From Sphingobacterium composti (GTDB lineage: Bacteria; Bacteroidota; Bacteroidia; Sphingobacteriales; Sphingobacteriaceae): 64,000 bases of DNA. Of the stretch, positions 386 through 18,941 are shown one piece after another (within the stretch, counting starts at the first letter, position 1; each line of letters begins with the position of its first letter). The DNA lies in NCBI RefSeq assembly GCF_009829075.1, contig NZ_WUQZ01000010.1, positions 1 to 64,000 on the forward strand, in the 5' to 3' direction. Made by a program: the position numbers and the translations under genes. The notes below the pieces were generated by a model. The model made no database searches. It saw only the letters and a list, made by a program, of their open reading frames with translations, and was not told the origin of the DNA.

Positions 386-2872
386 CTATTTGTTATAGTA
401 TTTCAAAAATTTATTATGTAATTGTTCATCATCTACATACTTTGCAAAAGTTGTTGACTTATTATATAAATAAAACTCATCAATATAATGTTTTAGAAAT
501 TCAAGATGAGGGATATTTGGAGCAGTATAGCTTTTATTAATTAGTTTATTTGTTTCAGATTCTGAAAAAAGAATTTTGATATAATTGGATATTATAATTT
601 CTCTTGTATAATCATCATAATTTCCAGACCATTTTTTACCAATTAGTGTTTCTTCAATTAATTTAATGAAATTATTATCCCTAGAAACATAATCTTTGAC
701 AATATTTACAATTCTATCATCATACACATAATGATCATTCATAATCTCTACGGTTGATAATTTAAATAATTCAAAAACCTTTTTTACGTCTTCATTTCTA
801 ATGATTAAATTTTTTAGTGTATTTATATATAATTCTAAAATCACCTCTTTAAATTCACTGTTTAAAACCTTGTTATCTTCAGCATCTAATCGTAAAATTC
901 TTAATACAATATCAGAAACCACTTCTAAGTAGACGGTTTTATTTTTACCATTTCTATCTTCTTTATAAGATTCTAGCACATCTCTTAATAATCCATATAA
1001 TTCATCGGGTAAAGGGATTTTATTGAGAAATCCTGAGATAATTACATCACGTGAGAATTTCGGATCTTTTAAATTTAGTAAAGCAGGCATTAAGTTTTTA
1101 TCTTTATTATCACTTAAATAGATTAAAAGTATGCTAAAAAGATCTTTTTTAATCATTTCATCTTCTGACAGCCACTCGTTGAATTTATCTGCAATCTCAA
1201 AATTTGACTTTTCAATTGTATCAAAAAATTCGACTATACTTAAGCCATAATTTGCATAATTAAAGTACAATAATCTATTTTCTCTAGAGTAACCTTTTAT
1301 ATTATTTTTATTTGACCCTAAAAGCTCTAATAAATTTTTAATATGCAAAATTTGACATTTCGAAATTTTATCAATATTCAATTCTTTTTGACAAGGATCA
1401 TGATTAGATTCATCTTCTTGTATGAAAGAATTTATAAAATCTACATTATTAAGTATTCGATTATATACAATAGTGTTACTAGATTTAATAGCTTCCAGAA
1501 TCAATAAATCTGTATAATCAATATTACCTCTCAATTTATTATAAGCAATTTTAAAAGAATTAATTAATCGATTTACTTGTCTTAAATTTCTAATCATTGC
1601 TGCAAAAGATTCATTTCTTAATAAATCACTTAATGAATCAATTAATTTTGAATCGTTAAATTCACTCTTAAATTTATCTAAAATGGTTTTTTCATATAAA
1701 TCATTACTTAAGATAGGGAGTGATATTAATACATTGAAAATTTTTTCTATATACTTTGCATTATCAATTTTAGAGTTTACATAATCTATATCAATCCCTG
1801 CTATAAAAAATGTATTAGCAAAATTTGCTGAATTTCTAATCAACTTTAGTACACTCATTAACTCTTGGCTATCAAGCCTATCCGTATCATCAACTATTAT
1901 GATTATTTTTTTACGAGAAAGTTGTAATTGACAGGAAATCTCTTTCTTAAGATCAAATAAAGACTTACTTCCCCCCATTAGTTTAACGAGTTTAAGAGAA
2001 AGATTTAATTTATCATTTTCATAACTATCAGATATTTGACTAACATAATTTTCTATGTCGGTAGTTAATTCTTTATTCAAGAATTTGGTCGATGATATAA
2101 ACTCAGAAAAAAAGGCATCTATCAAATTACTTGAATCATACTGCCAAGGATTGAATTCAATAATAATGTAATCATCACGATAAACTTCCAAATCCCTTTT
2201 AATTAAATTTGAAAAAAATGTCTTACCATCCCCCCAATTACCAACAACACCGACATTAAAAGCTTGTTCAGTTTCTGTGTTATGTATAAATTTAATAAGC
2301 TCACTACTTAATCCTGAAAAATTTAAAAGATCTGATGCACTACTATTATCTAATACGAACTGGTAATCTTTATTTTCAGTATCTTTTCTAACATAATATA
2401 ATGACCACTTACTAGTATAAATAATTAATGTAATTAACATACCAAAGGCTAATAGTTCAACATGATCCGAAAGTTCAACTTCCCAAAATACACTATTAGA
2501 AATAAATACATTGAATACATAAATTATGACAATTGAATACCATAGAGAATTTATTGTTATTAAATAACCATGTCTCAGTCTATTAAATATTACTCTTGCA
2601 ATATTTAAAACAAAAATATAGATTACTACAATAAGTAAGTTTTCATTGATTTTGAAATTTGATTTTAAAAACACTAGTAAACTTTTAACATGACTATTTA
2701 AAATATAATCATCAAAACCAACCAATGTCATAGCAAATAAAAAGCACAAAATTGCTTTTGATAATTTGAATTCTTTTAAATATTTTTTTTCATCAAATTC
2801 ATATTGCCACATTGGTCGAAATAGTCTTTTAAAATTTAATGATTCCAAAGCTTTATCAAGGAAATTTATCAT
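386..2872 (-). CDS. KAP-family P-loop NTPase with N-terminal membrane segments
   Basis: This 828-residue protein has about four hydrophobic segments in its first 160 residues (near 38-58, 78-96, 104-125 and 139-157). A Walker A motif GNWGDGKT follows at 211-218, the KAP signature EFNPWQY at 239-245 and a Walker B stretch ending VDDTDRL near 323-333. KAP NTPases are membrane-associated ATPases, and several occur beside restriction or other defence genes. The C-terminal half (about 400-828) is helical and unassigned. The gene begins two bases after the stop of the restriction-methylation gene on the same strand, so the two are probably co-transcribed. It sits at the left edge of the mobile element, next to attL. 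Family assignment is firm. A defence role is inferred from the neighbourhood only. Confidence 0.85.
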   Translation of the reverse strand: MINFLDKALESLNFKRLFRPMWQYEFDEKKYLKEFKLSKAILCFLFAMTLVGFDDYILNSHVKSLLVFLKSNFKINENLLIVVIYIFVLNIARVIFNRLRHGYLITINSLWYSIVIIYVFNVFISNSVFWEVELSDHVELLAFGMLITLIIYTSKWSLYYVRKDTENKDYQFVLDNSSASDLLNFSGLSSELIKFIHNTETEQAFNVGVVGNWGDGKTFFSNLIKRDLEVYRDDYIIIEFNPWQYDSSNLIDAFFSEFISSTKFLNKELTTDIENYVSQISDSYENDKLNLSLKLVKLMGGSKSLFDLKKEISCQLQLSRKKIIIIVDDTDRLDSQELMSVLKLIRNSANFANTFFIAGIDIDYVNSKIDNAKYIEKIFNVLISLPILSNDLYEKTILDKFKSEFNDSKLIDSLSDLLRNESFAAMIRNLRQVNRLINSFKIAYNKLRGNIDYTDLLILEAIKSSNTIVYNRILNNVDFINSFIQEDESNHDPCQKELNIDKISKCQILHIKNLLELLGSNKNNIKGYSRENRLLYFNYANYGLSIVEFFDTIEKSNFEIADKFNEWLSEDEMIKKDLFSILLIYLSDNKDKNLMPALLNLKDPKFSRDVIISGFLNKIPLPDELYGLLRDVLESYKEDRNGKNKTVYLEVVSDIVLRILRLDAEDNKVLNSEFKEVILELYINTLKNLIIRNEDVKKVFELFKLSTVEIMNDHYVYDDRIVNIVKDYVSRDNNFIKLIEETLIGKKWSGNYDDYTREIIISNYIKILFSESETNKLINKSYTAPNIPHLEFLKHYIDEFYLYNKSTTFAKYVDDEQLHNKFLKYYNK

Positions 2873-2874
2873 AT

Positions 2875-5800
2875 CTACACCTCCAATACTTTATCAATTT
2901 CCTTCATTAGTCGATCTGTTTCTGTTAGAGCGACGATCATTTTTTGGTAATGCAAGACATCATCAAAGTCCAGTTCGCGGTCTTTACGGTCTTTGAGCCA
3001 TTTTTGAGCAGGTTGGTAGCCTCCTATATAGAAGTTCCAAGCAAGTTCGGACACCTTATCGAAATACTGTGCTTCGTTGATATAGACTTTGCCATCTTTG
3101 AATACTGGCTTGCCTACGATATTGCTACCTCCTACTGGATAAGAAGTAATCAAATCTTCTACTTTTTTGTTTTCTAAAAGATGTAGCTCTCGTATTTGTC
3201 CACCAAGCTCAACCAATTGCCAAAATGCTGTCGCATCCGCAGGATAAGGCACTCTCGGAAAATCTATCTTCAAGAATTCCTTGTATTTCTCGCGATAAGC
3301 TGGCGAATGTAATACCGCATAGATATAGTCTAAAAGATCTATTGGTGCAAATGTATTTTCTGTATCTTCTTTCTCGTTGGTAAACGTTAGCCCCAATCCT
3401 TTTGCTATTTCAGCTACAATTTCTTTGTTTAGATTTGGAATACGTTCTTGTTGTTCGTCTGTACTTAATTGTCCATTGGTTTCGGGATATAAATAAAGAG
3501 GGAATACTTGACAGCCTTCTTTAGTTTTATTTGAAATAAAACATTGATCTGATATTTTGTCAGATATAAAAATATGGTAAAAATCATTACTAGCTAATTG
3601 CCTAACACTTATTAACGAATAATTTTTTGATTTTTCTTTGAAATTCCCTAGTACTTTTGTATTTAAACGAGCTACAAACTTATCATCATAATAAACGTAT
3701 CTCGTATCAAAGCATCTATAATTTTGAATTCTAAATTTAAAATCATTTATTCCTTCTTTTTTTAGATGTTCCCTCGCCAAAAATAGATTCCATTTGTCAT
3801 TATCTTTTAGTTTTAAATTGTATTTTTCACTTAAAACATCATCAGATAATTCTGGATTTAAAAAATCCAGCAATCTATTTCTTACACTATCAATTTCAAA
3901 ATCAGTTATAAACTTATCTTTTTTTGTAAGTAAACCTAATGAATTAATTACAAACAATTCATTTAATGCAATATTTTGCATATAAATATTTTGTAAGGAC
4001 ATGTCCTTAGTAACCATAAAATAATTCGGAGGATTACTTTCTAATTTTGAAAAAGAAATTGCTTTAATATCATTTTCAATCAGAAATTCATATTTCCTCT
4101 CTCGCTTACCAAACAAATCATAGTGATATACTTGACCTAATTCATCTTTAGCTTTTTTCCCGGTTTTGACGAATAGATTAATGGAAACCCCTTGCATTAT
4201 ATCAAATACATTCTGGTCTATACCTCCATCGTGAGCAGTTTCTTTCTTTTTCGCATTACCATGCAAATCTATGGTATAGATTTTATCATAAGTTTTGAGC
4301 AAATTCCATCGCATTCCTCTAAAAGTTGGATTATCCAAAAAGCCATGTGGATTGATAAAAGCCAAAATACCCGAACCATTCTTCTCGATGAAATGTTGTC
4401 CAAAACGAATGAATTTCACATAATCATCATTTATAAATTTCGAATTTTGCTCTTTAAGTTTTTCTTTTCCTCCTGGCTCCTTCTTATAATCCTCCATCAA
4501 ATCCATTATCCACTTACCCTTATTAGCAGACTCTCCACTATATGGTGGATTACCTATTATAACCATCACTGGAGTATCTTTCTTTACTTCATTGGCTTGA
4601 TTGGATTCGTCAGATAGCCAAGAGCTAAATAAGGTATTCGAATCAGGATGGGCCTCTTCGAGCGAATTGGTCAAGAAGATACGGAAACGTTGATTGTCTT
4701 CGGCTACATAACCAGTCTCCGACAAGAGCATATCCATCTTAAGATGAGCCATCGCATAGGAAGCCATCAAGAGCTCAAATCCATTCATACGTGGTATTAG
4801 GTCTTCTTTGACATACTTCTGCCACATGCCTTCCATGCCTTTGAATTTGCTGTGTATATGCTTAATGGTCTCCGCTAAGAAAGTTCCTGTACCCGTAGCT
4901 GGATCGAGTACCTGTACACGATGCACTTCACGTTCGTAATCGGTTACACCGCCTTTGTGACGCTTATCGGCAGATTGTACCTTGACTTTGATTTTCGTTT
5001 TTGAATTATCGGCCAATCCTTTTAAAAGTCCAAACTCATCTTTCAATATATCATCTACTGCACGTACAATGAAATTAACTACAGGCTGTGGTGTGTACCA
5101 CACTCCCCTCGCTTTGCGTAAGGATTTATCATATTCGGCTAAGAATGTCTCATAGAAATGAATAATTGGATCCTCCATCTTGGTCGAGCGTCCAAAAGTC
5201 TTCATGATCTTGGCCACATCTGTAGCTAAGAATATTGTCACCAATTCGTCCACTATCCAGACAATACGGCTATCTACATCAAATCCCGCAATATCTTGAA
5301 ATAACTTACGCAAAAAAGGATTAGATTTAGGAATCAGCTCCGCAGCTTCCATACGTGAGAATGTCGGCAAAGATGGATCATGATATCGTGCTGCAAACAT
5401 ACCATAAGCTATCGTCTGTGCGTATATATCTGCAAATGAACGATTGGTAATATCGTGTATAAGCATCTGCTTAAACGAAAGCATTTGCCCCTTTAGCGAA
5501 GAATTTTGCTCTTGAGCATCATCATAATCTAAGGACTGTTCGATCACATTAGCCATCAATCGAGCTTTACCAGCCATCAGTTGCGCTAGCTTTGTCGGTG
5601 ACTTGATAGTCTGCGTGATGGTTTCAGCAAAATTTTTGATTAAAGTCTCGAACTGCTCAAAATTAGCATTTAAGCCGATAATATTTCCATTCTCGATTTG
5701 AGCGATGCGAATCTCTACCACAAACTCACCATCTTTATAAAACACAAAATGCAGGTAATCTGTAATAATTAGATTGGACAATCCTAATCGGTAACGATCA

Positions 5801-6069
5801 AATTGCTCTTTTAAAGTCTTGCTCTTTAAGTCGACATTAATATCCTTTGCTTCAATGTAGCCGATAGGGATATTGGCTTTACCTTTGGTCAACACATAAT
5901 CTGGAGCTCCACACTCAACACGAGCTGGCTCATTAGTTACTAATATATCTTGGGGTAATATTGATGCTAATAATCGTTGCAAATCTCCTCTGTATGAATG
6001 CTCACGCGCATTCCCTGTAGCATAAAGTCGATTTATATTCTCAATGTATTGCTGTACTGAAAAATCCAT
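2875..6069 (-). CDS. Single-chain restriction-modification enzyme (type ISP/IIG-like)
   Basis: This 1064-residue enzyme carries nuclease and adenine-methyltransferase parts in one chain. A PD-(D/E)XK nuclease site is visible near the N-terminus (PD at 56-57, EAK at 73-75). The methyltransferase has WYTPQPVV near 324, the AdoMet-binding motif DPATGTGTF at 389-397 and the catalytic NPPY at 507-510, the mark of N6-adenine methylation. The C-terminal 350-400 residues should recognise the target. I see no helicase motifs between nuclease and methylase, so it is shorter than classical type ISP enzymes of about 1,500-1,600 residues and closer to type IIG/IIL design. It is divergent from the gene at 6175 and is followed two bases later by the KAP ATPase. 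Cleavage and specificity cannot be read from the sequence. Confidence 0.9.
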   Translation of the reverse strand: MDFSVQQYIENINRLYATGNAREHSYRGDLQRLLASILPQDILVTNEPARVECGAPDYVLTKGKANIPIGYIEAKDINVDLKSKTLKEQFDRYRLGLSNLIITDYLHFVFYKDGEFVVEIRIAQIENGNIIGLNANFEQFETLIKNFAETITQTIKSPTKLAQLMAGKARLMANVIEQSLDYDDAQEQNSSLKGQMLSFKQMLIHDITNRSFADIYAQTIAYGMFAARYHDPSLPTFSRMEAAELIPKSNPFLRKLFQDIAGFDVDSRIVWIVDELVTIFLATDVAKIMKTFGRSTKMEDPIIHFYETFLAEYDKSLRKARGVWYTPQPVVNFIVRAVDDILKDEFGLLKGLADNSKTKIKVKVQSADKRHKGGVTDYEREVHRVQVLDPATGTGTFLAETIKHIHSKFKGMEGMWQKYVKEDLIPRMNGFELLMASYAMAHLKMDMLLSETGYVAEDNQRFRIFLTNSLEEAHPDSNTLFSSWLSDESNQANEVKKDTPVMVIIGNPPYSGESANKGKWIMDLMEDYKKEPGGKEKLKEQNSKFINDDYVKFIRFGQHFIEKNGSGILAFINPHGFLDNPTFRGMRWNLLKTYDKIYTIDLHGNAKKKETAHDGGIDQNVFDIMQGVSINLFVKTGKKAKDELGQVYHYDLFGKRERKYEFLIENDIKAISFSKLESNPPNYFMVTKDMSLQNIYMQNIALNELFVINSLGLLTKKDKFITDFEIDSVRNRLLDFLNPELSDDVLSEKYNLKLKDNDKWNLFLAREHLKKEGINDFKFRIQNYRCFDTRYVYYDDKFVARLNTKVLGNFKEKSKNYSLISVRQLASNDFYHIFISDKISDQCFISNKTKEGCQVFPLYLYPETNGQLSTDEQQERIPNLNKEIVAEIAKGLGLTFTNEKEDTENTFAPIDLLDYIYAVLHSPAYREKYKEFLKIDFPRVPYPADATAFWQLVELGGQIRELHLLENKKVEDLITSYPVGGSNIVGKPVFKDGKVYINEAQYFDKVSELAWNFYIGGYQPAQKWLKDRKDRELDFDDVLHYQKMIVALTETDRLMKEIDKVLEV

Positions 6070-6174
6070 TTATTTAAGCGAATGAATATGGTTTAAATTG
6101 TTTTAAAATTAGTTAAAATAAGTGAAAGGAATGATTTATCTTTCGAAATATTAAAACTCAACAAATCTTAAATT

Positions 6175-7008
6175 ATGAATACTTTATTAGATATAGACAA
6201 AATTGTAGGATACCTATTGCCTCTTAAAGAGAAACTTCACCGACTTTATAATTGGAATGCTAAAATTGACAGATTAGTGGAACTTCAAATTATCGATAAT
6301 GCGCAACTGATTTCTTGGAACAGTCTATCTAACTTTGAAAAAGAATTAAAAATAAAACACACTCTAAATCAACATTTGAATGATGCAAACTCAGTAAATT
6401 CCGTCGATAGTAAATTTGATGAATTATGTTTATGGATAATAAAAGATTGGGGAGGCATAAATCTTAATAAAGAGGTAGTAAAACCTTTGGTTAATCAATT
6501 TATAAATAAAAAAGACTGGGGTTTCAATAAAATAGCAAGTATTTCAAAAGTAGCTTCTTTTATGTTTCCAGAAGAATTTATCATATATGATTCAAGAATT
6601 GCCTATTCATTAAATTGGATAATTCTTAAAACCAATGCTGGTAATAAATACTTCCCTATTCCTGAAGGTAGAAACTCAAAAATGACTTCATTTGATATGA
6701 ATACGTTAATTCATATCAAACATGCTAATAATTTCTTTACAAATGACCACCAAGAATTATTGGGTAAAAATAAATTTATCAGTAAAAGAGATCAGATTAT
6801 CTACTTCGATAAAAAGGATGCATACAAACGTCTAAATAGACTCATCAAAGAGATAAGCGTAAAATTATGGGATGGAGATTTAGAAAAGACACAAAAATTG
6901 TTCTATACAGAAATGTTATTATTTTCTATAGCGGACAACGTGATTTTTCAAGACATAGTAAAACATTTTATGGATAATAATTCAATTTTCCAGAATTCAT
7001 CAGAATAA
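6175..7008 (+). CDS. Hypothetical protein, possible OGG-like fold
   Basis: This 277-residue soluble protein has no signal peptide or membrane segment. The centre has a stretch near residues 120-145 reading KVASFMFPEEF then IIYDSRIAYSLNW. It resembles the helical core of proteins annotated as 8-oxoguanine-glycosylase-fold (OGG-like), where a conserved Asp follows a hydrophobic strand before an Arg-x-Ala helix. I rank this as a weak lead, because no helix-hairpin-helix lysine is obvious. The gene lies head-to-head with the restriction enzyme (105 bases between starts) and eight bases before a PD-(D/E)XK-like gene, so these two form a pair. A role in DNA processing or defence is inferred from position. 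Confidence 0.6.
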   Translation: MNTLLDIDKIVGYLLPLKEKLHRLYNWNAKIDRLVELQIIDNAQLISWNSLSNFEKELKIKHTLNQHLNDANSVNSVDSKFDELCLWIIKDWGGINLNKEVVKPLVNQFINKKDWGFNKIASISKVASFMFPEEFIIYDSRIAYSLNWIILKTNAGNKYFPIPEGRNSKMTSFDMNTLIHIKHANNFFTNDHQELLGKNKFISKRDQIIYFDKKDAYKRLNRLIKEISVKLWDGDLEKTQKLFYTEMLLFSIADNVIFQDIVKHFMDNNSIFQNSSE

Positions 7009-7016
7009 CATTTTCA

Positions 7017-7628
7017 ATGAAATACGATAGAGATTTAGCACTACAAACTCGTATCAACACGCATCTAAGTCGAATTACAGGTATCGAAAAGGACTATTAC
7101 CAAGACCTTTCAATAAGTGATATTTTTGAGCTTAAAACAGTATTGGCCGACATTAATAATATGCTTACTTACAAAACAACAATGTATGCAGCTGAGTGGT
7201 TGATAGATTTTTTTCAACTAGATAAAGTTTATAGTAAAAAGTTACTGGAACTAATTAAAACTACAAAACCGAATAGCAATGGATTTGATATCAATATTAT
7301 TAATAAAAATTTGAAAGTTGTAGCAGAAGTCAAATGTATTAATCCCATCAACCTAGGTCATAAGTTTGGATCAGCTCAAAAAAACTCTATAATATCTGAC
7401 TTTCAAAAACTTAATAATGGAAAGAAAAAACGAAGTGGAGATAGTATAATCGATAATACAAAAGATTTTTACAAAATTTTATTTTTCTTAGATAACGATC
7501 ATAGAGTAAGCACTGCAATTCATGACTTAGTCAAACGAACTGATTTTAAAATAAAAATATTATCAACCGAAAGCTTTTGTATGATGGATAAAGAACATAT
7601 TTATATAAAAATTCTATCTGAGATATAG
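7017..7628 (+). CDS. Putative PD-(D/E)XK nuclease
   Basis: The 203-residue product has the spacing of a PD-(D/E)XK nuclease core in its middle: GFDI in one strand followed about a dozen residues later by VVAEVKC, giving Asp and Glu-x-Lys as the metal-binding set. The N-terminal third is helical and the C-terminus has alternating strands. There is no membrane segment. It follows the OGG-like gene by eight bases, so the pair is probably one transcript. Proteins of this size and motif are often small restriction endonucleases, but I see no partner methylase on this strand. The family call rests on the motif alone. Confidence 0.6.
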   Translation: MKYDRDLALQTRINTHLSRITGIEKDYYQDLSISDIFELKTVLADINNMLTYKTTMYAAEWLIDFFQLDKVYSKKLLELIKTTKPNSNGFDINIINKNLKVVAEVKCINPINLGHKFGSAQKNSIISDFQKLNNGKKKRSGDSIIDNTKDFYKILFFLDNDHRVSTAIHDLVKRTDFKIKILSTESFCMMDKEHIYIKILSEI

Positions 7629-7636
7629 TAATTCCT

Positions 7637-7644
7637 TATCTTTA
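7637..7644 (+). promoter_or_regulatory. Possible -7 promoter box for the structured leader
   Basis: TATCTTTA matches the Bacteroidota -7 pattern TAnnTTTG in all but the last base. It lies where transcription would start at about 7650, just before the hairpin beginning at 7670. No convincing -33 TTTG is visible, so confidence is low. Confidence 0.35.
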
Positions 7645-7651
7645 CAATAAT

Positions 7652-7845
7652 AATTTATTAAACAAAGTAGCGTAAGCTATCCTTGTGGTTTAACTGAAAC
7701 TGCGACCTTCAATTAAACAACCACTGTAAGGATAGACTTACGCCCGTGCCTGATATTGGGCGTGGGCTAAGTCTGTCTGGTTGTTTGGTTGTCGCAGACC
7801 ACAGTTAAGGACATGATCTTAGTTTCACGCCTTTCTTTATTTCTC
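7652..7845 (+). ncRNA. Candidate structured RNA / 5' leader (intact copy)
   Basis: This non-coding stretch can fold into two domains. The 5' hairpin pairs 7670-7684 (GCGTAAG + CTATCCTT) with 7728-7743 (AAGGATAG + CTTACGC), extended by GTGGTTTAA (7685-7693) with 7713-7724. The 3' domain pairs GGCGTG + CTAAG (7759-7771) with CTTAG + CACGCC (7818-7831). The apical loop of the first contains CTGCGAC (7700-7706), the exact complement of GTCGCAG (7791-7797) in the loop of the second. TTAACTG (7690-7696) can also meet CAGTTAA (7802-7808), in competition with the top of the first stem. This gives a loop-loop pseudoknot. The next gene begins at 7860. A second copy lacking the 5' half is at 18623. I do not recognise the family. 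It is not a riboswitch class I know. Confidence 0.65.
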
Positions 7846-7859
7846 AAAATAAACTTAAA

Positions 7860-9053
7860 ATGGCACAAGAAAGATTTTATTACACTTCCAAAAGCTCCCC
7901 TTTACTTTCAGTTGATGAGTCCATAATAATTCAGATTTTGACAATGTATGAAGATGGAACTTCGGTTGGCTTGATTAAGGAAACATTCCCAGATGTTAAG
8001 ATTAACAAAAACCTTTATATGTTTCTGCCTTATATAATCACCGATGATATTTGTGACTGTGGTAAACCTTTGTACAGAAAAACAAAAGGGAGAACATCAT
8101 TCGCTGAAGAACTTACCTATTGCCCTGCTTGCAAGCATGATGGAACCCCCGAATGTTTATGTAAAACTTGCGTTTTAAAAAGAAAAAATGAGCTTGAGGC
8201 TAGAAAAGTACAATTTTATAAAACTTGGGATAGTTATTATGATAAAACTTATAACTCAGCTATTGAATTAAGTAATCTAAGTACTTATGAAGAAGTTCAA
8301 TTAGTTATACTCATTCACGAATACTTTAATAAAGAATCAAAATCCTTCGATTTCATACATGCTCGTCTAATGGAAGTAAATTTCGGTATACGCCAACTTC
8401 CTACGGAAATCTTTAAATTCACTAAAGCATTTATTGATAAAAAGATCCTAATTCCAGAAAAAGAAGTCGAATATTCAACCTCGCTCGATCATTACGGTGA
8501 TTTAGGTCTTTTTCAACCTCAACTAAGTTTGGCTAATTGCCAATGGACACTCAATTTAGCGAAAGATGGTAACACTTTGACTGTAGGAGAAATCTTCAAT
8601 TATCTTATCAAAAAAGATTACACAGCTGCTCAACGTGAGATATTTTGGAAAGAATGCTATCAAGAAAGTATAATCAACTACTTTGAATATAGCACCAGAA
8701 ACTATGCGAATTTTGATCTTATTAAACAAAATTTAGAATTAATCGCAGATGAACTATTTAATCACTACAGTTTATCAAAAGCCTACAGATTAATCTATTA
8801 TGGTATACAACGAACATTAACCCATAAAGCAAAATATAGTACAACTATCAAAAGTGCAAATAGCTATCTGCGAAACTTGATGCTATCGAATATTGAGAAG
8901 TACAACCTTCCAGAACATAAGCCAAATTTAAAAGACTTCAATCTTGTAGAATTATCAGAATCCTACTTCACGCATTATATCAAACGCTACATTTTGCGAA
9001 GTAGTCAAGAGTATTTCTATTACAACTTGGCTGACATTAGACACAAATTTTAA
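7860..9053 (+). CDS. Cysteine-rich (zinc-ribbon-like) protein downstream of the structured leader
   Basis: This 397-residue protein is of unknown family. Near residues 65-105 it has a cysteine cluster: CDCGKP, then YCPACKH, then CLCKTC, which looks like one or two zinc ribbons. A long, mostly helical region rich in Tyr, Glu and Lys follows, with no membrane segment or signal peptide. I see no reverse-transcriptase, HNH, RuvC or helicase motifs. The start at 7860 is supported by the second partial copy, where the same leader is followed by a start encoding MAQ and a matching Phe-Tyr at residues 6-7. The gene is monocistronic between the nuclease-like gene and a lipoprotein. Partnership with the leader RNA is inferred from the joint duplication of leader and start. 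Confidence 0.7.
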   Translation: MAQERFYYTSKSSPLLSVDESIIIQILTMYEDGTSVGLIKETFPDVKINKNLYMFLPYIITDDICDCGKPLYRKTKGRTSFAEELTYCPACKHDGTPECLCKTCVLKRKNELEARKVQFYKTWDSYYDKTYNSAIELSNLSTYEEVQLVILIHEYFNKESKSFDFIHARLMEVNFGIRQLPTEIFKFTKAFIDKKILIPEKEVEYSTSLDHYGDLGLFQPQLSLANCQWTLNLAKDGNTLTVGEIFNYLIKKDYTAAQREIFWKECYQESIINYFEYSTRNYANFDLIKQNLELIADELFNHYSLSKAYRLIYYGIQRTLTHKAKYSTTIKSANSYLRNLMLSNIEKYNLPEHKPNLKDFNLVELSESYFTHYIKRYILRSSQEYFYYNLADIRHKF

Positions 9054-9073
9054 TCACATAAAACTATTAAATC

Positions 9074-9586
9074 ATGAGAACAATTATCAAAATTTCATTC
9101 CTTCTGGTCGCGCTTATCAGCTTTTCTTGCAGCAAGAACAATAATGATAACCCAAGTCCGAATCAATCAACTAAAAAGGTCGTAGAAGTAAAAATTAGTT
9201 ACGGATCGAACTATGCTGATTATGCAGCTAATCTAGGTTTACAAGTAGCTAGTGTGGACGCTGACTTGAAAAGTGATTTCAAGTTTGTAGGCATAAATTC
9301 TACTTTATCGATATTTCATGAAGCAAGCATAATACATCAAGCCAACGTATCCCCGATCCCTAGCGCTACATCAAGTATCAAAACTTCCGCTACTGTTAGT
9401 ACCTTCACTATTTCATCAGTCTTTACCAATTTGAAAGAAAATGCTAAACCGCTAACAGTGACGTATGAATTTTATGTAGACAGCAAAAAGACAACAACTA
9501 AAACACTTGTCTTTGAGCAAAATGATTATGCCGCTAAATCATTGATTCTGGATGTTACAAATCCAAAAGAACTAATTGAAAACTAA
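9074..9586 (+). CDS. Small lipoprotein, unknown function
   Basis: The 170-residue product starts with a lipoprotein signal (MRTIIKISFLL, lipobox ISFSC, Cys about residue 19) followed by an Asn/Ser-rich linker. The mature part is predicted to be beta-rich. It lies 20 bases after the cysteine-rich gene and could share its transcript, and an intrinsic terminator follows. Lipoprotein export to the outer membrane is likely from the signal. No functional domain is recognised. It is cargo of the mobile element. Confidence 0.7.
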   Translation: MRTIIKISFLLVALISFSCSKNNNDNPSPNQSTKKVVEVKISYGSNYADYAANLGLQVASVDADLKSDFKFVGINSTLSIFHEASIIHQANVSPIPSATSSIKTSATVSTFTISSVFTNLKENAKPLTVTYEFYVDSKKTTTKTLVFEQNDYAAKSLILDVTNPKELIEN

Positions 9587-9596
9587 ACATTTAAAA

Positions 9597-9632
9597 ACAA
9601 ACAGCATTATATATTTATATAATGCTGTTTGT
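9597..9632. terminator. Bidirectional terminator-like hairpin
   Basis: A 14-bp perfect stem (ACAAACAGCATTAT with ATAATGCTGTTTGT) around an 8-base loop lies between the convergent lipoprotein gene and relaxase gene. No strong T tract follows. The next 40 bases are an AT-rich series of TATATA motifs. Confidence 0.6.
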
Positions 9633-9673
9633 ATATATTTATATAACTCTTGAATATATAATTATATAATAAT

Positions 9674-10855
9674 TTAACGCCTCATCCTTCTTCTTTTTCT
9701 TCTTTCCTCTTCATCTATTTGTTCAGCGCTAACACTACCAAGTAAGCCACTAAGATTGCTAATAAGGGAATTTGAATCATGAGATAGCCCGTTAGAAATA
9801 GATTCTTCAATCTCTGACTCTGTTTCTTCATCTGTGCGATCTCCGTGAGAATGGGCTGTAAATCTTGAATCACCTCCTTTTCTGTCATTGAATTCATTTT
9901 CTGATACAGTATATTTTGATTCTTTATAACTTTTACTTGATATTCCGATAGTTCGATCATCGCCAATTTCACTTCCTCTATTTGCTTTGTTAAGCTCAGT
10001 TTCAAATCTTGATCTTGTATCAATGTTTGTTTGACGAACTGTTTCGCCATCTCTGCTTTGTTTGCCATAATTTAGATTTTGAGATAAATTATTCCATTTA
10101 AATTGATTTCCAAGCTTTTGACCTTTAGCTATAAATCCATTTTGACTGATATAAGTTATACCAGAAACTCTTCCTGTGCTGCTGGATTGATTAAACAAGA
10201 GGTAAATTCCATTCAACTTACAATTCTCTATAAACGACTGTATATCTACAGAAACACCTAATGCTGACTTAACTTTTTCTTGCATTAAAATTCTTTCTGA
10301 GGGATGTCCAGTGCGTTGAATCATTTCTAGCTCATCTTTTGTTGGTGCTCGATCTAGTGCTTCATGAGACGATCTAACCTTTTCTAAGTTAAAGCGTATC
10401 TCAAGTTCTCTACAGACCGCTTCGCTCCTTCTGTAATTATTGGAATCAGAAACTACATGTACTTTACCTTGCTCATTAATCGATAAACGATGTAATAAAA
10501 GATGGATATGTATATGATTATGATCTTCTCCATCGTTATGTTTGTACAAGACAAATAAATTATCATCCGTAAAACCCATTCCTTTTTTATAAGCTTCAGC
10601 TATAGCTATTAAATCAGCATTTCTTAAATGTGTATCCTTCTCAGAAAAACTTAATGCAACATGATATCCATCATTTGTCAACTTGGAATTTAGTTTATTC
10701 AGCATTCCAATTTCTTTCATAATTTCTGCCTTATTATATTCCAGAAAATTATGACCCAAGACTTCTGCACGATGAGATTTATCTTTAAGTTTAAGCTTGT
10801 TATCATTATAATCTAATGCTGCAGCAAAACTGTGTACTTTTTGCATTGCTATCAT
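9674..10855 (-). CDS. Relaxase / mobilization nuclease
   Basis: The 393-residue relaxase nicks oriT and pilots DNA in conjugal mobilization. The metal-binding motif HNHIHIH is at residues 112-118, preceded by EKDTHLRNAD near 72-81, typical of the MobA/VirD2 family of Bacteroidota. Relaxase identity stops at about residue 250. The remainder is a polar, Ser/Glu/Arg-rich, probably disordered tail ending in an Arg-rich stretch. Its start overlaps the stop of mobC by four bases (10852-10855), the usual coupled arrangement. A 117-codon ORF in another frame on the same strand occupies almost the whole tail. No transfer machinery is present, so the element is mobilizable rather than self-transmissible. 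Confidence 0.92.
   Translation of the reverse strand: MIAMQKVHSFAAALDYNDNKLKLKDKSHRAEVLGHNFLEYNKAEIMKEIGMLNKLNSKLTNDGYHVALSFSEKDTHLRNADLIAIAEAYKKGMGFTDDNLFVLYKHNDGEDHNHIHIHLLLHRLSINEQGKVHVVSDSNNYRRSEAVCRELEIRFNLEKVRSSHEALDRAPTKDELEMIQRTGHPSERILMQEKVKSALGVSVDIQSFIENCKLNGIYLLFNQSSSTGRVSGITYISQNGFIAKGQKLGNQFKWNNLSQNLNYGKQSRDGETVRQTNIDTRSRFETELNKANRGSEIGDDRTIGISSKSYKESKYTVSENEFNDRKGGDSRFTAHSHGDRTDEETESEIEESISNGLSHDSNSLISNLSGLLGSVSAEQIDEEERRKRRRMRR
9715..10068 (-). CDS. Nested overlapping ORF: coiled-coil protein with C-terminal membrane anchor
   Basis: This ORF lies entirely inside the relaxase gene, same strand, shifted by one base (787 bases, 262 codons plus one, from the relaxase start). It encodes 117 residues with protein-like organisation: an ATG start (MANKAEMAKQF), a charged amphipathic helix or coiled coil over about residues 10-85 with regular Leu/Ile spacing, and a hydrophobic segment (LMIQIPLLAILVAYLVVLAL, near 96-115) ending in NK. 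The relaxase frame over the same DNA is low-complexity and polar, as expected where one frame is free to vary. This argues for a real overprinted gene, perhaps a membrane-tethered mobilization accessory protein. That role is inference. Confidence 0.6.
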   Translation of the reverse strand: MANKAEMAKQFVKQTLIQDQDLKLSLTKQIEEVKLAMIELSEYQVKVIKNQNILYQKMNSMTEKEVIQDLQPILTEIAQMKKQSQRLKNLFLTGYLMIQIPLLAILVAYLVVLALNK

Positions 10856-11190
10856 AAACTGTATATTTTAGATTTTATCATTTGGAGAATTGCGTACAAT
10901 TCAGTCATTATGGAATTATCAATTTCTGAAATTCGACTTTGATTAATAGCTTTTACATATTGATTAAAGTTTACTCCAATTTTTCTTAGCTGTTGGTAGG
11001 TTTGGACATCTAGAATAGGTTGAATAGACTCAGGAGTTTTAGCCTTCATCAGTAGTGAACGTATTACTTCTGGGCTATTATTCTTAGTAGCAAAAACTAT
11101 TGCATCGAGCTTCCTTTTCTCTTTTATATTTAAACGAACTTTTACCTCGAAAATTCGTTTTTCTTCTTTACTTAGCAGTTTTCTTTTCAT
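10852..11190 (-). CDS. MobC-like relaxosome protein
   Basis: The 112-residue protein has the layout of MobC-family relaxosome accessory proteins: a basic N-terminus, a ribbon-helix-helix-like part (FEVKVRLNIKEKRKLDAIV), and the C-terminal QTYQQLRKIGVNFNQYVKAI region that I associate with plasmid mobilization relaxosome proteins. It would bind oriT and help the relaxase open it. The gene overlaps the relaxase start by four bases and is preceded by a strong hairpin (11213-11253) that may be part of oriT. Confidence 0.85.
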   Translation of the reverse strand: MKRKLLSKEEKRIFEVKVRLNIKEKRKLDAIVFATKNNSPEVIRSLLMKAKTPESIQPILDVQTYQQLRKIGVNFNQYVKAINQSRISEIDNSIMTELYAILQMIKSKIYSL

Positions 11191-11212
11191 AATTAAACGA
11201 AGTGCAATTTTT

Positions 11213-11253
11213 TGAGCAAGCGTTGAAGAGGGACTCTCAACATGGCTTGCTCA
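11213..11253. other. Imperfect palindrome upstream of mobC, oriT candidate
   Basis: TGAGCAAGC (11213-11221) pairs perfectly with GCTTGCTCA (11245-11253). Inside, GTTGA + GAG pairs with CTC + TCAAC around a GGA loop with one bulged A. No T tract follows on either strand, which argues against a terminator. Its place just before mobC-relaxase is where mobilizable elements often keep oriT. No nic site can be assigned by eye. Confidence 0.5.
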
Positions 11254-11261
11254 CTTTCAAG

Positions 11262-12191
11262 CTATTTCTTATTTAGTAAGTAATCCCCTACATCCTTATA
11301 GTCTTTGTAAAATCCATTTAGAGGGATTACTTTATCAGGATATTTATTCATTAATGCATTCAAAATTTCCATTCCTGCAGGATCATTGTCTGTGCTAGCG
11401 TATAAAGTGTCGTATGTAGCTGAATACTCTGACAATACCTCAAACACCTTCAACTTGGTAGAGACCGAGTTCATGATGATAAAGTCATTCTTCAGCTCCA
11501 TTTTCTTATTAAGGCATAACTTTGGGTAAAGGCTTAATAAAGACACAAAATCGCTCCAGCTTTCCAAAATCACTACGCTAGAAGAGCCATTCTTTATATG
11601 AGTGATATCTTTGGCTACAAGACACATTTTGTGCCGTACAAAGTCTTGTTTAGCCTTATTCCAGTATTCCCAACTCAACTCGTAGCCTTGACTGTCATTT
11701 TCAAAACCGACAGCATAGTAAACCTTATTATTTATCTTAAAATGAACTTCACAGAGATACCTCCAATATTGCTGATGGATCCTTCTTCGATTCAGATATT
11801 TTATGAGATTAGGGTTTTGGATTTTTTTAATAGCTAGGATTTCATAACGATCTTTGTCTTCTTTTTTAGAAAGCTGATTACGTTCTTTTTTTTGCTTAAT
11901 AAAAGAAGAAGTTAGATCAAAGGAATCCAGTAATGACAAAGCATGTTGAACTGAACAGCGATAATATCGAACCATGTAATCTACAACATTACCTGCCTCT
12001 CCTGTCCCCCAATCCTTGTATGTGTTGTCATCCTCATTCACGACAAAACTTGCTGTCCGTTCTTCTCTAAACGGACTAATGAACCAATGGCATTTTTTGC
12101 CTTTATTATTTCTCGAATACGACTCTTTATACCCTTGTTTGTGGAGTATTGAGAGTAGTGATATTCTTGTATTAGCAATTGAGCAATTCAT
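11262..12191 (-). CDS. Toprim-domain primase with CHC2-like zinc finger
   Basis: The 309-residue protein resembles small DnaG-like primases of Bacteroidota mobile elements. The N-terminal part has a CHC2-type context: KKCHWFISPFREERTASF followed by WGTGEAGNVVDYMVRY. The C-terminal half is a Toprim domain with the acidic ESWSDFVS motif and the DxD-type STDNDPAGME. It would prime replication of the transferred strand or of an excised circular form. The upstream 250 bases hold TGATGA repeats that could be its binding or origin region. It is shorter than chromosomal DnaG and lacks a helicase-binding domain. Confidence 0.85.
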   Translation of the reverse strand: MNCSIANTRISLLSILHKQGYKESYSRNNKGKKCHWFISPFREERTASFVVNEDDNTYKDWGTGEAGNVVDYMVRYYRCSVQHALSLLDSFDLTSSFIKQKKERNQLSKKEDKDRYEILAIKKIQNPNLIKYLNRRRIHQQYWRYLCEVHFKINNKVYYAVGFENDSQGYELSWEYWNKAKQDFVRHKMCLVAKDITHIKNGSSSVVILESWSDFVSLLSLYPKLCLNKKMELKNDFIIMNSVSTKLKVFEVLSEYSATYDTLYASTDNDPAGMEILNALMNKYPDKVIPLNGFYKDYKDVGDYLLNKK

Positions 12192-12237
12192 GAGTTTTAA
12201 GTCTAATACCTATATTTAGGGTCGTATTTTCTAAAAA

Positions 12238-12459
12238 GTTTGATGATTTGATGACAATCAGATGCAATAAACTGAACAACAATAAATTAAGATGTCATCA
12301 AACCGTCATCAAACCATCATTTTTTGATGACACTTGATGATTGATGACGGTAATTCTAAAATAGTTTGATGATTGATGATACTTTGATGATTGTTTGATG
12401 ATTATTTAAATAACTAACAATCAATATATTAAACATAACAATCATCAAATCATCAATAT
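12238..12459. repeat. TTTGATGA repeat cluster (iteron-like)
   Basis: About thirteen copies of TGATGA or its complement TCATCA, many extended to TTTGATGA or TTGATGATT, lie in both orientations between the primase start and the integrase stop. The last two overlap the integrase stop codon. Such clusters are typical of iterons or of operator arrays for the downstream gene. Placement directly before the primase suggests an origin of replication or autoregulatory site. This reading is inferred. Confidence 0.6.
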
Positions 12460-13995
12460 TTTACGCAACTCGTAACCTTTTAATGTATAATACCTACCTT
12501 TCAGATGAGCTTCATAAATTATTCCTGAGGTATCATACTTATAAGTTGTGTAATTAAAAGTGTTATCTGACAATGGAATCTTCCAATTATCTATGATCCG
12601 TTTTACATCACCTCTTGTGAGTTTTATGTTATTACTCCGCAGCAATTCTATTGCATCCTTATTCGTAAAATGAAACTCTTCCAAATTATAGGAATCCATT
12701 ATTTCAGAAATAACATTTAAAAGTTCTAATTCAATTTTATTACGAAATCTACCTTTAATCTTTAAAAGAGCTCCCTTATTCCATTTACTCATTTCATCTA
12801 CTAGATATTTTCCTTCTAGCTTAACGTACCGTCTAAAGCTTCTTTCATCTTTATGATTACTAATTGTCTTAACGACACGCTCTGGAATCCCCAATTCAAG
12901 AGAAACCGAAATGAAAGTTTTCCTCATTACATGGCTTGTTATCAACTCAAACTTATAAAACTCACGTTTTTCAGCAATAGCTCCACGAAATCGTGTTAAA
13001 ACAATTTTCTTATCCCATCCAAGTAATTCACAACATTTTTTCAGATTTATATTAAGCTTAGTACTCGTTATTTTGGGAATAGGTTCATAGATTGTTCCTT
13101 TATACCTTTCAATTAATTGCTTTAAATGATCACTAATTGGGACTAAGTGATTAAATGTTTTTGTTTTTTGAATTGTAATATTTATCAAATCATCTTCTAA
13201 TATAGCGTCACTGACAGCATAAACATCACAATGTCTTAATCCAGTAAATGCTCCAAAACAAAACATGTCACGCGATCTATTTAAAGCTCCATTTTCAAAT
13301 TCATAATTAAACAAAATCATTAACTCATCATAAGTTAAACGAATGACTTCTATTTCATTCTCAATCCTTTTGAGCTCTTTATAATAAAGGTTATTATGAT
13401 AATTTCTTTTAAGTCCCCATGTCATAAATGTTTTTAATACAGCGATAATTCTGCTATAATAATTATTTAAATACCTTTTTTCGTTAAAGCAATAATCCAT
13501 AAAAGCCTCTTCAAACCTATAATCTATAGTATCAAAACGAACTGGGAATTTAGTAAAATCCTTGAATTGGAAAATTTTGTGTTTACAAGTAGTTATTTTC
13601 TTTATTGTACTTTTTGCTTTAGTATTTTTACATACGTAAATGTACTCATCAAAAGCTTGAAAGAAATCAATAGCTACAGATTTATTATTAGACTCGAACC
13701 GATCTAAAAACTCTTTTTCGGAAAACTCTATGTTATTATACTTGAAGAACTCAAATATATTATCAACCTTATCTTTAATCTAAAACAAGGCTTTATTCCA
13801 TTCCTTATACTCCTTAGCAAATGGATGATTTTTAGAATAAACGATTGTTTCCGTTTCAGAATCCCAATCATCTAATGCAGACTTAACTTCTAAATTCTTA
13901 CGAATTCTAATTTTCTCATGTTTCACTACCAATCTAATTGGTGCTAGTCCAATTTTTGACACTTTGTCTTTTCTAATTTCAAAATTATACCTCAT
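12445..13995 (-). pseudogene. Tyrosine integrase interrupted by one in-frame TAG
   Basis: The frame is open from the start MRYNFEIRK (13995) through 12445 except for one TAG at 13780-13782. The first part is an Arm-DNA-binding domain (IRLVVKHEKIRIRKNLEV). After the stop the same frame continues (IKDKVDNIFEFFKYN) through a SAM-like core-binding domain into the catalytic domain, with Arg in FGAFTGLRHCD, an HVMRKTF box and ISNHKDERSFRRYV supplying His and Tyr. About 516 codons without a frameshift means one nucleotide separates it from an intact gene. I prefer 13995 over 14022 as start because the AGGGGGC boxes lie just upstream. Either the element is immobilised, or the stop is read through, or it is a sequencing error. 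Confidence 0.85.
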
Positions 13996-18146: not shown

Positions 18147-18629
18147 ATGAAATACAACCTAGAGTGGTTAAAAGACCAAGTGAACCAAGGTCGTAATACT
18201 AACAATATATTTTTCTGGAGAGAATTCCCTAATACAGAAATAACAAAATCTTGCTTAAGTCAATGGTATCATGCACCATTCACATCAAATGAATTTACTT
18301 TCAATACCACCGAACATTACATGATGGCAAGGAAAGCACTTCTATTCCGTGACAAAGAAACATTTATTAAAATAGTTAATGCTAATACACCTAGTGAAGC
18401 AAAATCATTAGGCAGGCAAGTCAAAAAATTTGATGAAGCGATATGGAACGAACATAAGTTTGACATTGTAGTTAAAGGTAATTTATTGAAGTTTTCTCAG
18501 AATAAGCCTTTAAAAGATTATTTACTAAGTACAAATGATAGCATTCTTGTTGAAGCTAGTCCATATGACAGAATTTGGGGAATTGGGTTAGATGAAAATA
18601 GTCCTCACGTAAATGATCCATTGGGCTAA
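18147..18629 (+). CDS. NADAR-family protein, C-terminally truncated
   Basis: NADAR (YbiA-like) proteins act on ADP-ribosyl compounds, from riboflavin-pathway intermediates to ADP-ribosylated guanine in DNA. Family marks here are FWREFPNTEI early, CLSQWYHAPF, the ATLT-equivalent TTEHYMMARKALLF near 55-70, LGRQVKKFDEAIW near 95-107, and SPYDRIWGIGLDENSP near 143-158. Full-length members continue with a WKGxNLLGxALMxVR-type segment. Here the frame ends at 160 residues with DPLG and a stop exactly where sequence shared with the structured RNA leader begins (18623). The last 20-25 family residues are missing, so the gene was cut at a recombination junction. Function of the shortened form is doubtful. 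Confidence 0.8.
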   Translation: MKYNLEWLKDQVNQGRNTNNIFFWREFPNTEITKSCLSQWYHAPFTSNEFTFNTTEHYMMARKALLFRDKETFIKIVNANTPSEAKSLGRQVKKFDEAIWNEHKFDIVVKGNLLKFSQNKPLKDYLLSTNDSILVEASPYDRIWGIGLDENSPHVNDPLG

Positions 18630-18716
18630 GTCTGTCTGGTCTTTTGGGTATCCTAGTACCTCAGTTAAGGACATGATTTTAGTTTCACGCCTTTTTTATT
18701 ACTCAAAATAAACTTA
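18623..18716 (+). ncRNA. Second, 5'-truncated copy of the structured RNA leader
   Basis: From GGGCTAAGTCTGTCTGGT onward this matches 7765-7857, including CAGTTAAGGACATGAT, TTTCACGCC and CTCAAAATAAACTTAAA. The 5' hairpin is absent because the similarity starts at the NADAR junction. The loop segment that is GTTGTCGCAGACCA in copy 1 reads GGTATCCTAGTACC here, while both flanks are conserved. A start codon with the same first residues (MAQ) follows at 18723. Confidence 0.65.
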
Positions 18717-18722
18717 AATATT

Positions 18723-18788
18723 ATGGCACAAAGCAAATTCTATTCTCCATCAGGCTTTAAAAATCCTACAAAAATTTCAATATTATGA
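18723..18788 (+). pseudogene. N-terminal stub matching the cysteine-rich leader gene
   Basis: Twenty-one codons starting MAQSKFY (compare MAQERFY at 7860) end in TGA at 18786-18788. The stop overlaps the next ATG. It seems to be the leftover start of a relative of the 7860 gene, with the body deleted. Confidence 0.5.
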
Positions 18789-18937
18789 AAGGTTGTATTA
18801 CAGGTTTCATAGCTATTCTGTTGAGTACATATATCTCAATGGCTGGAATCTTTACTAAGCATGAAGGCCGGTCTCTTTTGTATATCGCTATCATTTGGAT
18901 ACTATTCTTTATTATAAATAAACCTCGTAAACGATAA
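18785..18937 (+). CDS. Small two-helix membrane protein
   Basis: A 50-residue ORF with two hydrophobic segments (ITGFIAILLSTYISMAGIF and LLYIAIIWILFFII) separated by a short charged loop and ending in KPRKR, a positive-inside tail. Its ATG overlaps the stop of the stub before it, and it ends four bases before the next start. Such short proteins may be real (holin- or toxin-like) or chance in decayed DNA. Confidence 0.45.
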   Translation: MKGCITGFIAILLSTYISMAGIFTKHEGRSLLYIAIIWILFFIINKPRKR

Positions 18938-18941
18938 TATT

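Follow-up and report, generated by a model that had tools for sequence, protein, structure and literature searches.

Within the window, by which we mean the whole 64,000-nucleotide stretch of Sphingobacterium composti DNA that was analysed, a strongly self-complementary non-coding segment precedes a gene for a cysteine-rich protein, and this raises the question of whether the two form a single functional unit, as an earlier sequence-only reading had proposed, or whether the RNA has a wider role. The segment at 7670-7842 represents one copy of a family of structured RNAs that matches nothing in Rfam, and it is the RNA rather than the protein that is the actual find. Base pairs of two mutually exclusive folds have been kept in this family, which makes the element a likely switch for transcription of the gene behind it. 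Our preferred reading, with a probability of about 0.5, is that the copies constitute a Bacteroidota-wide leader family acting in cis as a transcription attenuator, in which one fold would stop transcription into the gene and the other would permit it.

The RNA element in the window

The 199-nt stretch at 7652-7850 folds with -75.8 kcal/mol, compared with -43.4 +/- 4.1 kcal/mol for 200 dinucleotide shuffles (z -8.0), none of which folded equally well, so that the density of pairing noticed at the outset is indeed beyond chance. Both pairs of complementary 7-mers on which the sequence-only reading was based (CTGCGAC/GTCGCAG and TTAACTG/CAGTTAA) are present in the sequence. Its two hairpin domains exist as one of two alternatives, but the minimum-energy fold of the window copy is a single long rod, with which the two hairpins compete. 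Likewise, the proposed loop-loop pairing is a genuine and covarying long-range interaction, but in the rod it takes the form of nested ordinary helices. The rod also contains a third helix and the pairing of 7734-7749 with 7758-7773, and its helices are borne out by compensating changes in homologous copies. Equilibrium folds of growing transcripts of the window copy contain the early hairpin at lengths of 76-106 nt and the rod from 112-118 nt. The parts of the element are collected in Table 1; in this copy, the U-rich stretch is interrupted (TTTCTTTATTT) and the promoter box is inexact.

Table 1. Features of the RNA element and its surroundings in the window (own-versus-cross z, result of the alignment-free helix test described below).
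Feature	Position	Strand	Remarks
Promoter -7-like box TATCTTTA	7637..7644	+	7 of 8 positions of TAnnTTTG; about 26 nt 5′ of the RNA core
Structured RNA core and U-rich tail	7670..7842	+	R3 match 7670-7836, 139.3 bits, E 1e-29 (this copy is among the 46 used for building R3)
Strand 1	7670..7684	+	With strand 2 (early hairpin, fold I); first bases with strand 4 (fold II)
Helix L1, 5′ side, TTAACTG	7690..7696	+	Partner 7802-7808; own-versus-cross z 20.1 (50 copies) and 12.5 (22 further copies)
Helix L2, 5′ side, CTGCGAC	7700..7706	+	Partner 7791-7797; z 14.8 and 7.8
Helix L3, 5′ side, AAACAACCA	7715..7723	+	Partner 7778-7786; overlaps 3′ side of early hairpin; z 11.6 and 6.6
Strand 2	7728..7749	+	Partner strand 1 in fold I, strand 3 in fold II
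Strand 3	7758..7773	+	Partner strand 4 in fold I (terminator-like hairpin), strand 2 in fold II
Helix L3, 3′ side, TGGTTGTTT	7778..7786	+	Alignment-free tests and covariation
Helix L2, 3′ side, GTCGCAG	7791..7797	+	Alignment-free tests and covariation
Helix L1, 3′ side, CAGTTAA	7802..7808	+	Alignment-free tests and covariation
Strand 4 (7818-7831) and U-rich stretch (7832-7842)	7818..7842	+	U-run in the family; window copy 9 T of 12, longest run 3
397-aa Cys-rich protein gene	7860..9053	+	Cys clusters present; no Pfam, NCBIfam or PADLOC family
Second RNA copy, 5′-truncated	18622..18696	+	R3 match 18549-18696, E 0.0023

Three further DNA-level matches are found in the genome of the window, namely a copy at C2:87015 that precedes a 92% identical protein, a copy at C14:18354 without the full protein, and the 3′ half at window position 18622. 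The same genome carries a more diverged copy at C45:5979 and a weak one on C23 (E 0.0025). Within 18622-18940, the RNA 3′ half is followed by a 21-codon remnant starting MAQSKFYS (18723) and then by a small membrane-type open reading frame (ORF); by eye, small ORFs of this type also lie behind the RNA in L003 and L017.

Distribution of the family and sampling of copies

Three covariance models, built from 10 (R1), 13 (R2), and 46 (R3) copies, were used for searches, all within Bacteroidota; the genome counts that follow are model matches, only part of the loci having been read individually, and those of the large scans are lower bounds because few candidates were scored per genome. In the genus, R1 gave matches in 10 of 93 genomes, among them diverged copies that precede other genes. 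For R2, the figures are 85 of 301 genomes at the family level and 53 of 295 at the class level. With R3, matches were obtained in 23 of 198 genomes of the phylum, seven of these outside the class, as well as in 22 of the 30 genomes around G294, and each of 18 genomes of genus g25 carries 1-7 copies. Among the R2-derived loci, 46 were read, and all 43 that were kept match R1 over its full length and on the same strand (weakest E 0.0018). Besides L018, two IMG/VR contigs carry the RNA, and one of them, with its large ORFs, looks by eye like part of a phage.

Aligned relatives show compensating changes, as in CTGCGAC/GTCGCAG of the window versus CTAGGA/TCCTAG in L003. Two sets of copies were analysed. 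The 50-copy set consists of L001, L003, L010, L014, L040, L042, L051, and 43 of the 46 loci L061-L106, from which the near-duplicates L068 and L080 and the copy with an insertion of about 50 nt (L095) were removed; L002, L009, L011-L013, L015, L017, L041, L059-L060, and the truncated L004 and L016 lie outside it. The 22 further copies are the 24 loci L127-L150 minus L127 (the weak own-genome match, E 0.0025) and L128 (the same place as L081). Strand 4 and the U-run were usable in 48 of the 50 copies (L089 and L100 have no anchor), and the strand-4 anchor is present in 17 of the 22. Across all 72 copies, the median identity is 53% (range 37-94%).

A search of the whole window against Rfam 15 gave no matches, and among 50 loci (4 + 20 + 14 + 12, one of them the window's own) searched at lax E-values, no match overlapping the element was better than E 0.5, in agreement with the initial impression that the leader does not fit a familiar riboswitch, 6S RNA, or tmRNA.

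Covariation evidence for two mutually exclusive folds

Four strands are common to both folds, and the pairings 1:2 and 3:4 (fold I) exclude 2:3 and 1:4 (fold II). In an alignment fitted to the rod (fold II), 90.8% of 2296 cells are paired, a fraction reached in none of 500 shuffles, and double changes occur in 49 of 52 pairs; in L1 and L2, three or four kinds of Watson-Crick pair are seen at most positions, and 99.1% of the cells of L2 are paired in alignment A9. The corresponding alignment fitted to the hairpins (fold I) has 89.4% of 1542 cells paired (0/500 shuffles), with double changes in 28 of 32 pairs and 90.2% of cells paired in the 3:4 helix. Alignment A8 contains one wrong-strand row (L084) among 51. 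Each of the two pairing tables rests on an alignment fitted to its own fold, and since such alignments favour that fold, an alignment-free test was added in which the best helix between two regions is compared within one copy and across different copies. In the 50 copies, this test gave z values of 9.3 for the early hairpin, 7.2 for 2:3, and 10.1 for 3:4, alongside those of L1-L3 in Table 1. In the 22 further copies, none of which had entered any model, the test covered the early hairpin, L1-L3, and 3:4; z reached 5.5 for the early hairpin and 5.4 for 3:4, and each helix had 0 of 3000 permutations as good. These copies were found by R3, a model that holds L1-L3 but neither the early hairpin nor 3:4, and the latter two therefore constitute independent tests.

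A stricter version used as swap partner the nearest relative with less than 85% identity (n = 72). The copy's own helix was better in 67 and worse in 4 cases for L1, 57 and 6 for L2, and 55 and 16 for L3, compared with 45 and 26 for the early hairpin, 42 and 26 for 2:3, and 39 and 19 for 3:4. The last three are thus backed moderately, and far less than L1. Given these counts, the rod is very secure, whereas the early hairpin and the terminator-like hairpin are more moderately supported. Averaged over the copies, folding as a rod gains about 11 kcal/mol relative to the two halves taken separately, and the rod is the more stable form in 70 of the 72 copies, so that fold I needs kinetics or a partner. 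By eye, the unpaired stretches GAAAAC, GGGU, and GUACCUC are conserved across copies.

A possible additional pairing lies beyond the U-run and bears on whether the leader might act on translation or mRNA stability rather than on transcription, the rod gating ribosome access or protecting the message. In many copies, a hairpin before the start codon presents a GGGAC loop that could pair back to GUCCC of strand 4 (4:5), with z 5.3 in 48 copies of the first set, and the median distance from the RNA to the first ATG-started ORF is 46 nt (an ATG being present in 47 of 50 copies). In the 17 copies of the new set, the 4:5 pairing reached only z 1.4 (307 of 3000 permutations), it is missing in the window copy, and action on translation or stability would leave the U-run and the 3:4 covariation unexplained; we consider this reading unlikely.

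Promoter box, U-run, and distance to the gene

The flanks of the element are compatible with a transcribed leader. The exact sequence TAnnTTTG, which we take to be the promoter -7 motif, occurs upstream of the RNA in 20 of 54 copies at -100 to -50 and in 12 of 54 at -50 to 0, versus 1-3 of 54 in farther bins. In later regions (20 fetched, L183 dropped) it lies within 120 nt upstream in 16 of 19 copies, and the same holds for 17 of the 22 further copies; the 300 nt downstream of the RNA contain it in only 4 of 19 and 3 of 22, so that the evident promoter of the gene is that of the RNA itself. At the 3′ end of the element, a run of at least four T within 12 nt after strand 4 is present in 34 of 48 copies, compared with 11% of control windows, and a U-run follows strand 4 in 16 of 17 further copies. 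Two features by which an attenuator is recognised are found in the family: ahead of the gene, a hairpin that resembles a terminator and is followed by a U-run, and a conserved alternative pairing (2:3 with L1-L3) that excludes this hairpin.

In the first set, the nearness of a real gene is well above chance, since an ORF of at least 100 aa starts within 110 nt behind the RNA in 32 of 50 copies, compared with 2 of 50 on the other side and 8.3 of 50 expected at random upstream points. When ATG-started ORFs of at least 25 aa are counted, 42 of 50 copies have one behind the RNA, compared with 16 that have one on the opposite side and 21.6 expected at random upstream points, placing the chance level at 16-22 of 50; among the 22 further copies, only 12 have such an ORF within 110 nt.

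The same flanks would also suit a stand-alone small RNA of about 180 nt, produced from the promoter box and the 3:4 terminator, for which fold I would serve only to end transcription; the freed RNA would refold to the rod and act in trans, and the gene would be reached by leaky read-through or from other promoters. The stability and strong covariation of the rod, the prominence of the U-run, the ten further copies lacking a nearby ORF, and the SusC genes (see below) that start hundreds of bases away all agree with such a product. Against it stand the 32-to-2 asymmetry of ORFs of at least 100 aa, mostly unrelated genes, and the scarcity of a second promoter box; moreover, the long-range helices vary freely in sequence and therefore offer, short conserved loops aside, no obvious constant site at which common targets could pair. 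An independent small RNA is the main rival of the attenuator reading, but clearly the less likely of the two.

The proposed switch

Returning to the attenuator reading, a two-state leader with a promoter box and a terminator-like end before a variable gene has the anatomy of a transcription attenuator. Four strands would exchange partners. In fold I, strand 1 would pair with strand 2 as the early hairpin, leaving strand 3 to pair with strand 4 in a hairpin that is followed by the U-run and would resemble an intrinsic terminator. In fold II, strand 2 would pair with strand 3, L1-L3 would zip the arms into the long rod, and strand 1 would close on strand 4, by which the terminator hairpin would be blocked. 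Depending on the fold adopted, transcription would end before the gene or run on into it; in the window, the controlled gene would be that of the 397-aa zinc-ribbon-like protein of the mobile element.

Judging from sequence, a leader of about 165 bases is predicted to be transcribed before very different genes in many Bacteroidota, and it is perhaps a riboswitch-like class. A broader and more tentative proposal, which we hold less probable than the attenuator itself, is a phylum-wide class of RNA switch in which this bistable four-strand device, placed before SusC/SusD operons, secreted proteins, phage genes, and mobile cargo, would answer to one common signal. Covariation of two folds across Bacteroidota without an Rfam entry would represent a sizeable gap in the knowledge of gene control in this phylum, and if the switch is real, outer-membrane nutrient-uptake operons and horizontally acquired genes would be tied to one shared signal. 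The alignments yield the exact mutations for testing the switch.

Genes associated with the RNA in other genomes

The genes behind the RNA are mostly unrelated, comprising SusC/SusD operons, lipoproteins, a methylase, and mobile-element cargo, and the occurrence of one RNA before such genes fits a cis-acting device. Among 47 downstream ORFs (the longest ATG ORF of at least 70 aa starting within 400 nt), no Pfam family occurs in more than two. The products include an ECF sigma factor, a response regulator, a LytTR regulator, a DNA methylase, a PLD-like protein, and a phage tail collar protein, together with secreted and lipoprotein-type proteins recognised by eye. In families f22 and f54, SusC, SusD, and, behind SusD, a protein of 809-875 aa follow the RNA in four of six regions (L191, L192, L194, and L195), and Pfam Plug and CarbopepD_reg domains were found in two of the SusC genes. 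At these four loci, the distance from the RNA to the start of the gene is 275-493 nt, and here a released small RNA is as likely.

In four of the six regions L190-L195, the other side of the RNA carries a small gene in divergent orientation, 74-84 aa long and HTH-like by eye, and a secreted-type ORF of 91-94 aa with cysteines lies on the other strand in three of the four SusC/SusD regions, the fourth region ending earlier.

Genomic context also bears on an explanation at the level of DNA, according to which recombination, transfer, or the exchange of cargo would take place at the element, folded as single-stranded DNA or as a cruciform. Copies of the element occur on viral contigs and within mobile elements. 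Of the 20 regions compared in genus g2, 5 have an upstream gene in common and differ in the downstream ones; in addition, the opposite strand scores 24-38 bits with R1 because the element is near-palindromic. A site of this kind is nevertheless very unlikely, as the orientation relative to the gene, the near-fixed distance to the promoter box, and the U-run on one strand fit an RNA, as do the G-U pairs kept in all 11 copies of alignment A2. In 10 of the 20 regions L107-L126, a gene for a protein of about 600 aa (P-loop-like by eye) is found upstream of the RNA, which suggests that these regions share the backbone of a phage or mobile element and that the cargo following the RNA changes.

Comparison with known RNA classes

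Transcription attenuators and the expression platforms of riboswitches are antiterminator/terminator leaders, and the family resembles them in having exclusive 1:2, 2:3, and 3:4 pairings and a terminator-like hairpin with a U-run between a promoter box and a gene. Unlike them, it has neither a common leader-peptide frame nor an Rfam aptamer, its downstream genes are very diverse, and its antiterminator is a rod of about 50 pairs. A peptide-leader attenuator of the trp type was rejected, as each frame is free of stops in at most 12 of the 72 copies; an ATG is present in the first 70 nt of 40 of the 72, and an internal ATG ORF of at least 10 codons in 36.

Type III toxin-antitoxin systems consist of tandem RNA-antitoxin repeats before a toxin gene, the RNA being specific to that gene. 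Both these systems and the IscB omega RNA/HEARO are similar to the family in that, within mobile elements, a structured RNA precedes a protein gene. The former were rejected because 7600-7900 contains one two-copy 9-nt direct repeat only and no tandem repeats, and because the family RNA is not specific to one gene, given the varied downstream ORFs and the shuffled RNA and protein types described below. An IscB/HEARO omega RNA was set aside in the absence of an Rfam match, of IscB/HNH, and of a Pfam match for the 397-aa protein, and a retron because a Pfam scan of the 10 proteins encoded at 386-13500 detected no reverse transcriptase.

In the available parts of the literature searched, no described RNA was recognised as this family, although the candidates of PMC8040213 and PMC9723704 may overlap with it. 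PMC8040213 describes three palindromic candidate RNAs of 106-132 bp from gut-metagenome Bacteroidetes, HMP2_4205, HMP2_1032, and HMP_4078, of which the first two have predicted terminators, the neighbours of the trio being TPR, TonB, or phage genes; phylum, palindromy, and neighbours are shared with the family, and part of the two may overlap, the comparison being by description only. In Flavobacterium psychrophilum, structured 5′ regions and conserved small RNAs such as Rfp18 have been reported with measured expression (PMC9723704); these too are from Bacteroidota and include some structured leaders, so that an overlap, again judged by description only, may exist. GUCCY-hairpin, Flavo-1, 6S-Flavo, and Pedo-repair are Bacteroidetes motifs listed in PMC2864571. 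The last three are in Rfam, where the element has no match, and the GUCCY sequence also occurs in strand 4 of many family copies, GUCCY-hairpin having no Rfam number and being compared by description only. MRSC-65-2 (PMC11109978) is a single long stem with strong covariation, often in dozens of copies per genome and in diverse phyla. It is like the family in its long covarying stem and in sometimes lying near mobile-element genes, whereas the family has two alternative folds and 1-7 copies per genome in genus g25.

The cysteine-rich protein and the mobile element

The protein encoded directly behind the window copy was rightly described at first as cysteine-rich and of no recognised family. 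There are 18 proteins related to it, and in an alignment of 18 sequences (the query and 17 relatives, without the partial P0004), C65, C67, C88, C91, C99, and C104 are invariant and C101 nearly so. The structure model is of middling confidence (pLDDT 75.7), and a Foldseek search with it gave no significant match; nucleic-acid binding is a guess from the Cys clusters.

The suggested check, which was to collect the upstream regions of homologues and build a covariance model, bore out the RNA: it lies directly upstream in all eight inspected loci with a full or frame-broken protein (L001, L002, L010, L011, L012, L014, L015, and L018; L011 and L018 are near-identical, and metagenome-only proteins and a 31-aa match in G663 are outside the count), with compensating changes in the stems and the long-range helices. 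This association, together with a neighbourhood in which a KAP NTPase and a type IIG restriction enzyme are encoded, is what an RNA-protein defence or addiction module of leader RNA and zinc-ribbon protein would lead one to expect. The converse does not hold, as only 3 (L001, L010, and L014) of the 42 first ORFs behind the 50 copies match the protein-family profile, the protein has no PADLOC match, and the same genus has copies without the protein (L003). Moreover, RNA and protein types are shuffled in Sphingobacterium. Like RNAs accompany differing proteins in L001 versus L009 (RNA 96%, first 105 aa 38%) and L010 versus L013 (RNA 96%, first 105 aa 28%), and like proteins accompany differing RNAs in L001 versus L002 (RNA 84%, protein 87%). 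This shuffling argues against an RNA-protein addiction unit, and the initial proposal of such a unit now seems highly improbable.

The mobile-element setting noted at the outset is supported. Genes for a relaxase, a MobC-like protein, a CHC2/Toprim primase-like protein, and a tyrosine integrase at 9674-13500 form a mobilizable element adjoining the RNA. On the minus strand at 386-6069, a KAP-type NTPase gene lies beside that of a type IIG restriction enzyme-methyltransferase (PADLOC REase_MTase_IIG, 1171 bits). Directly behind the 397-aa gene, at 9074-9586, a lipoprotein with a PLAT/LH2 and C2-like domain (PLCC) is encoded.
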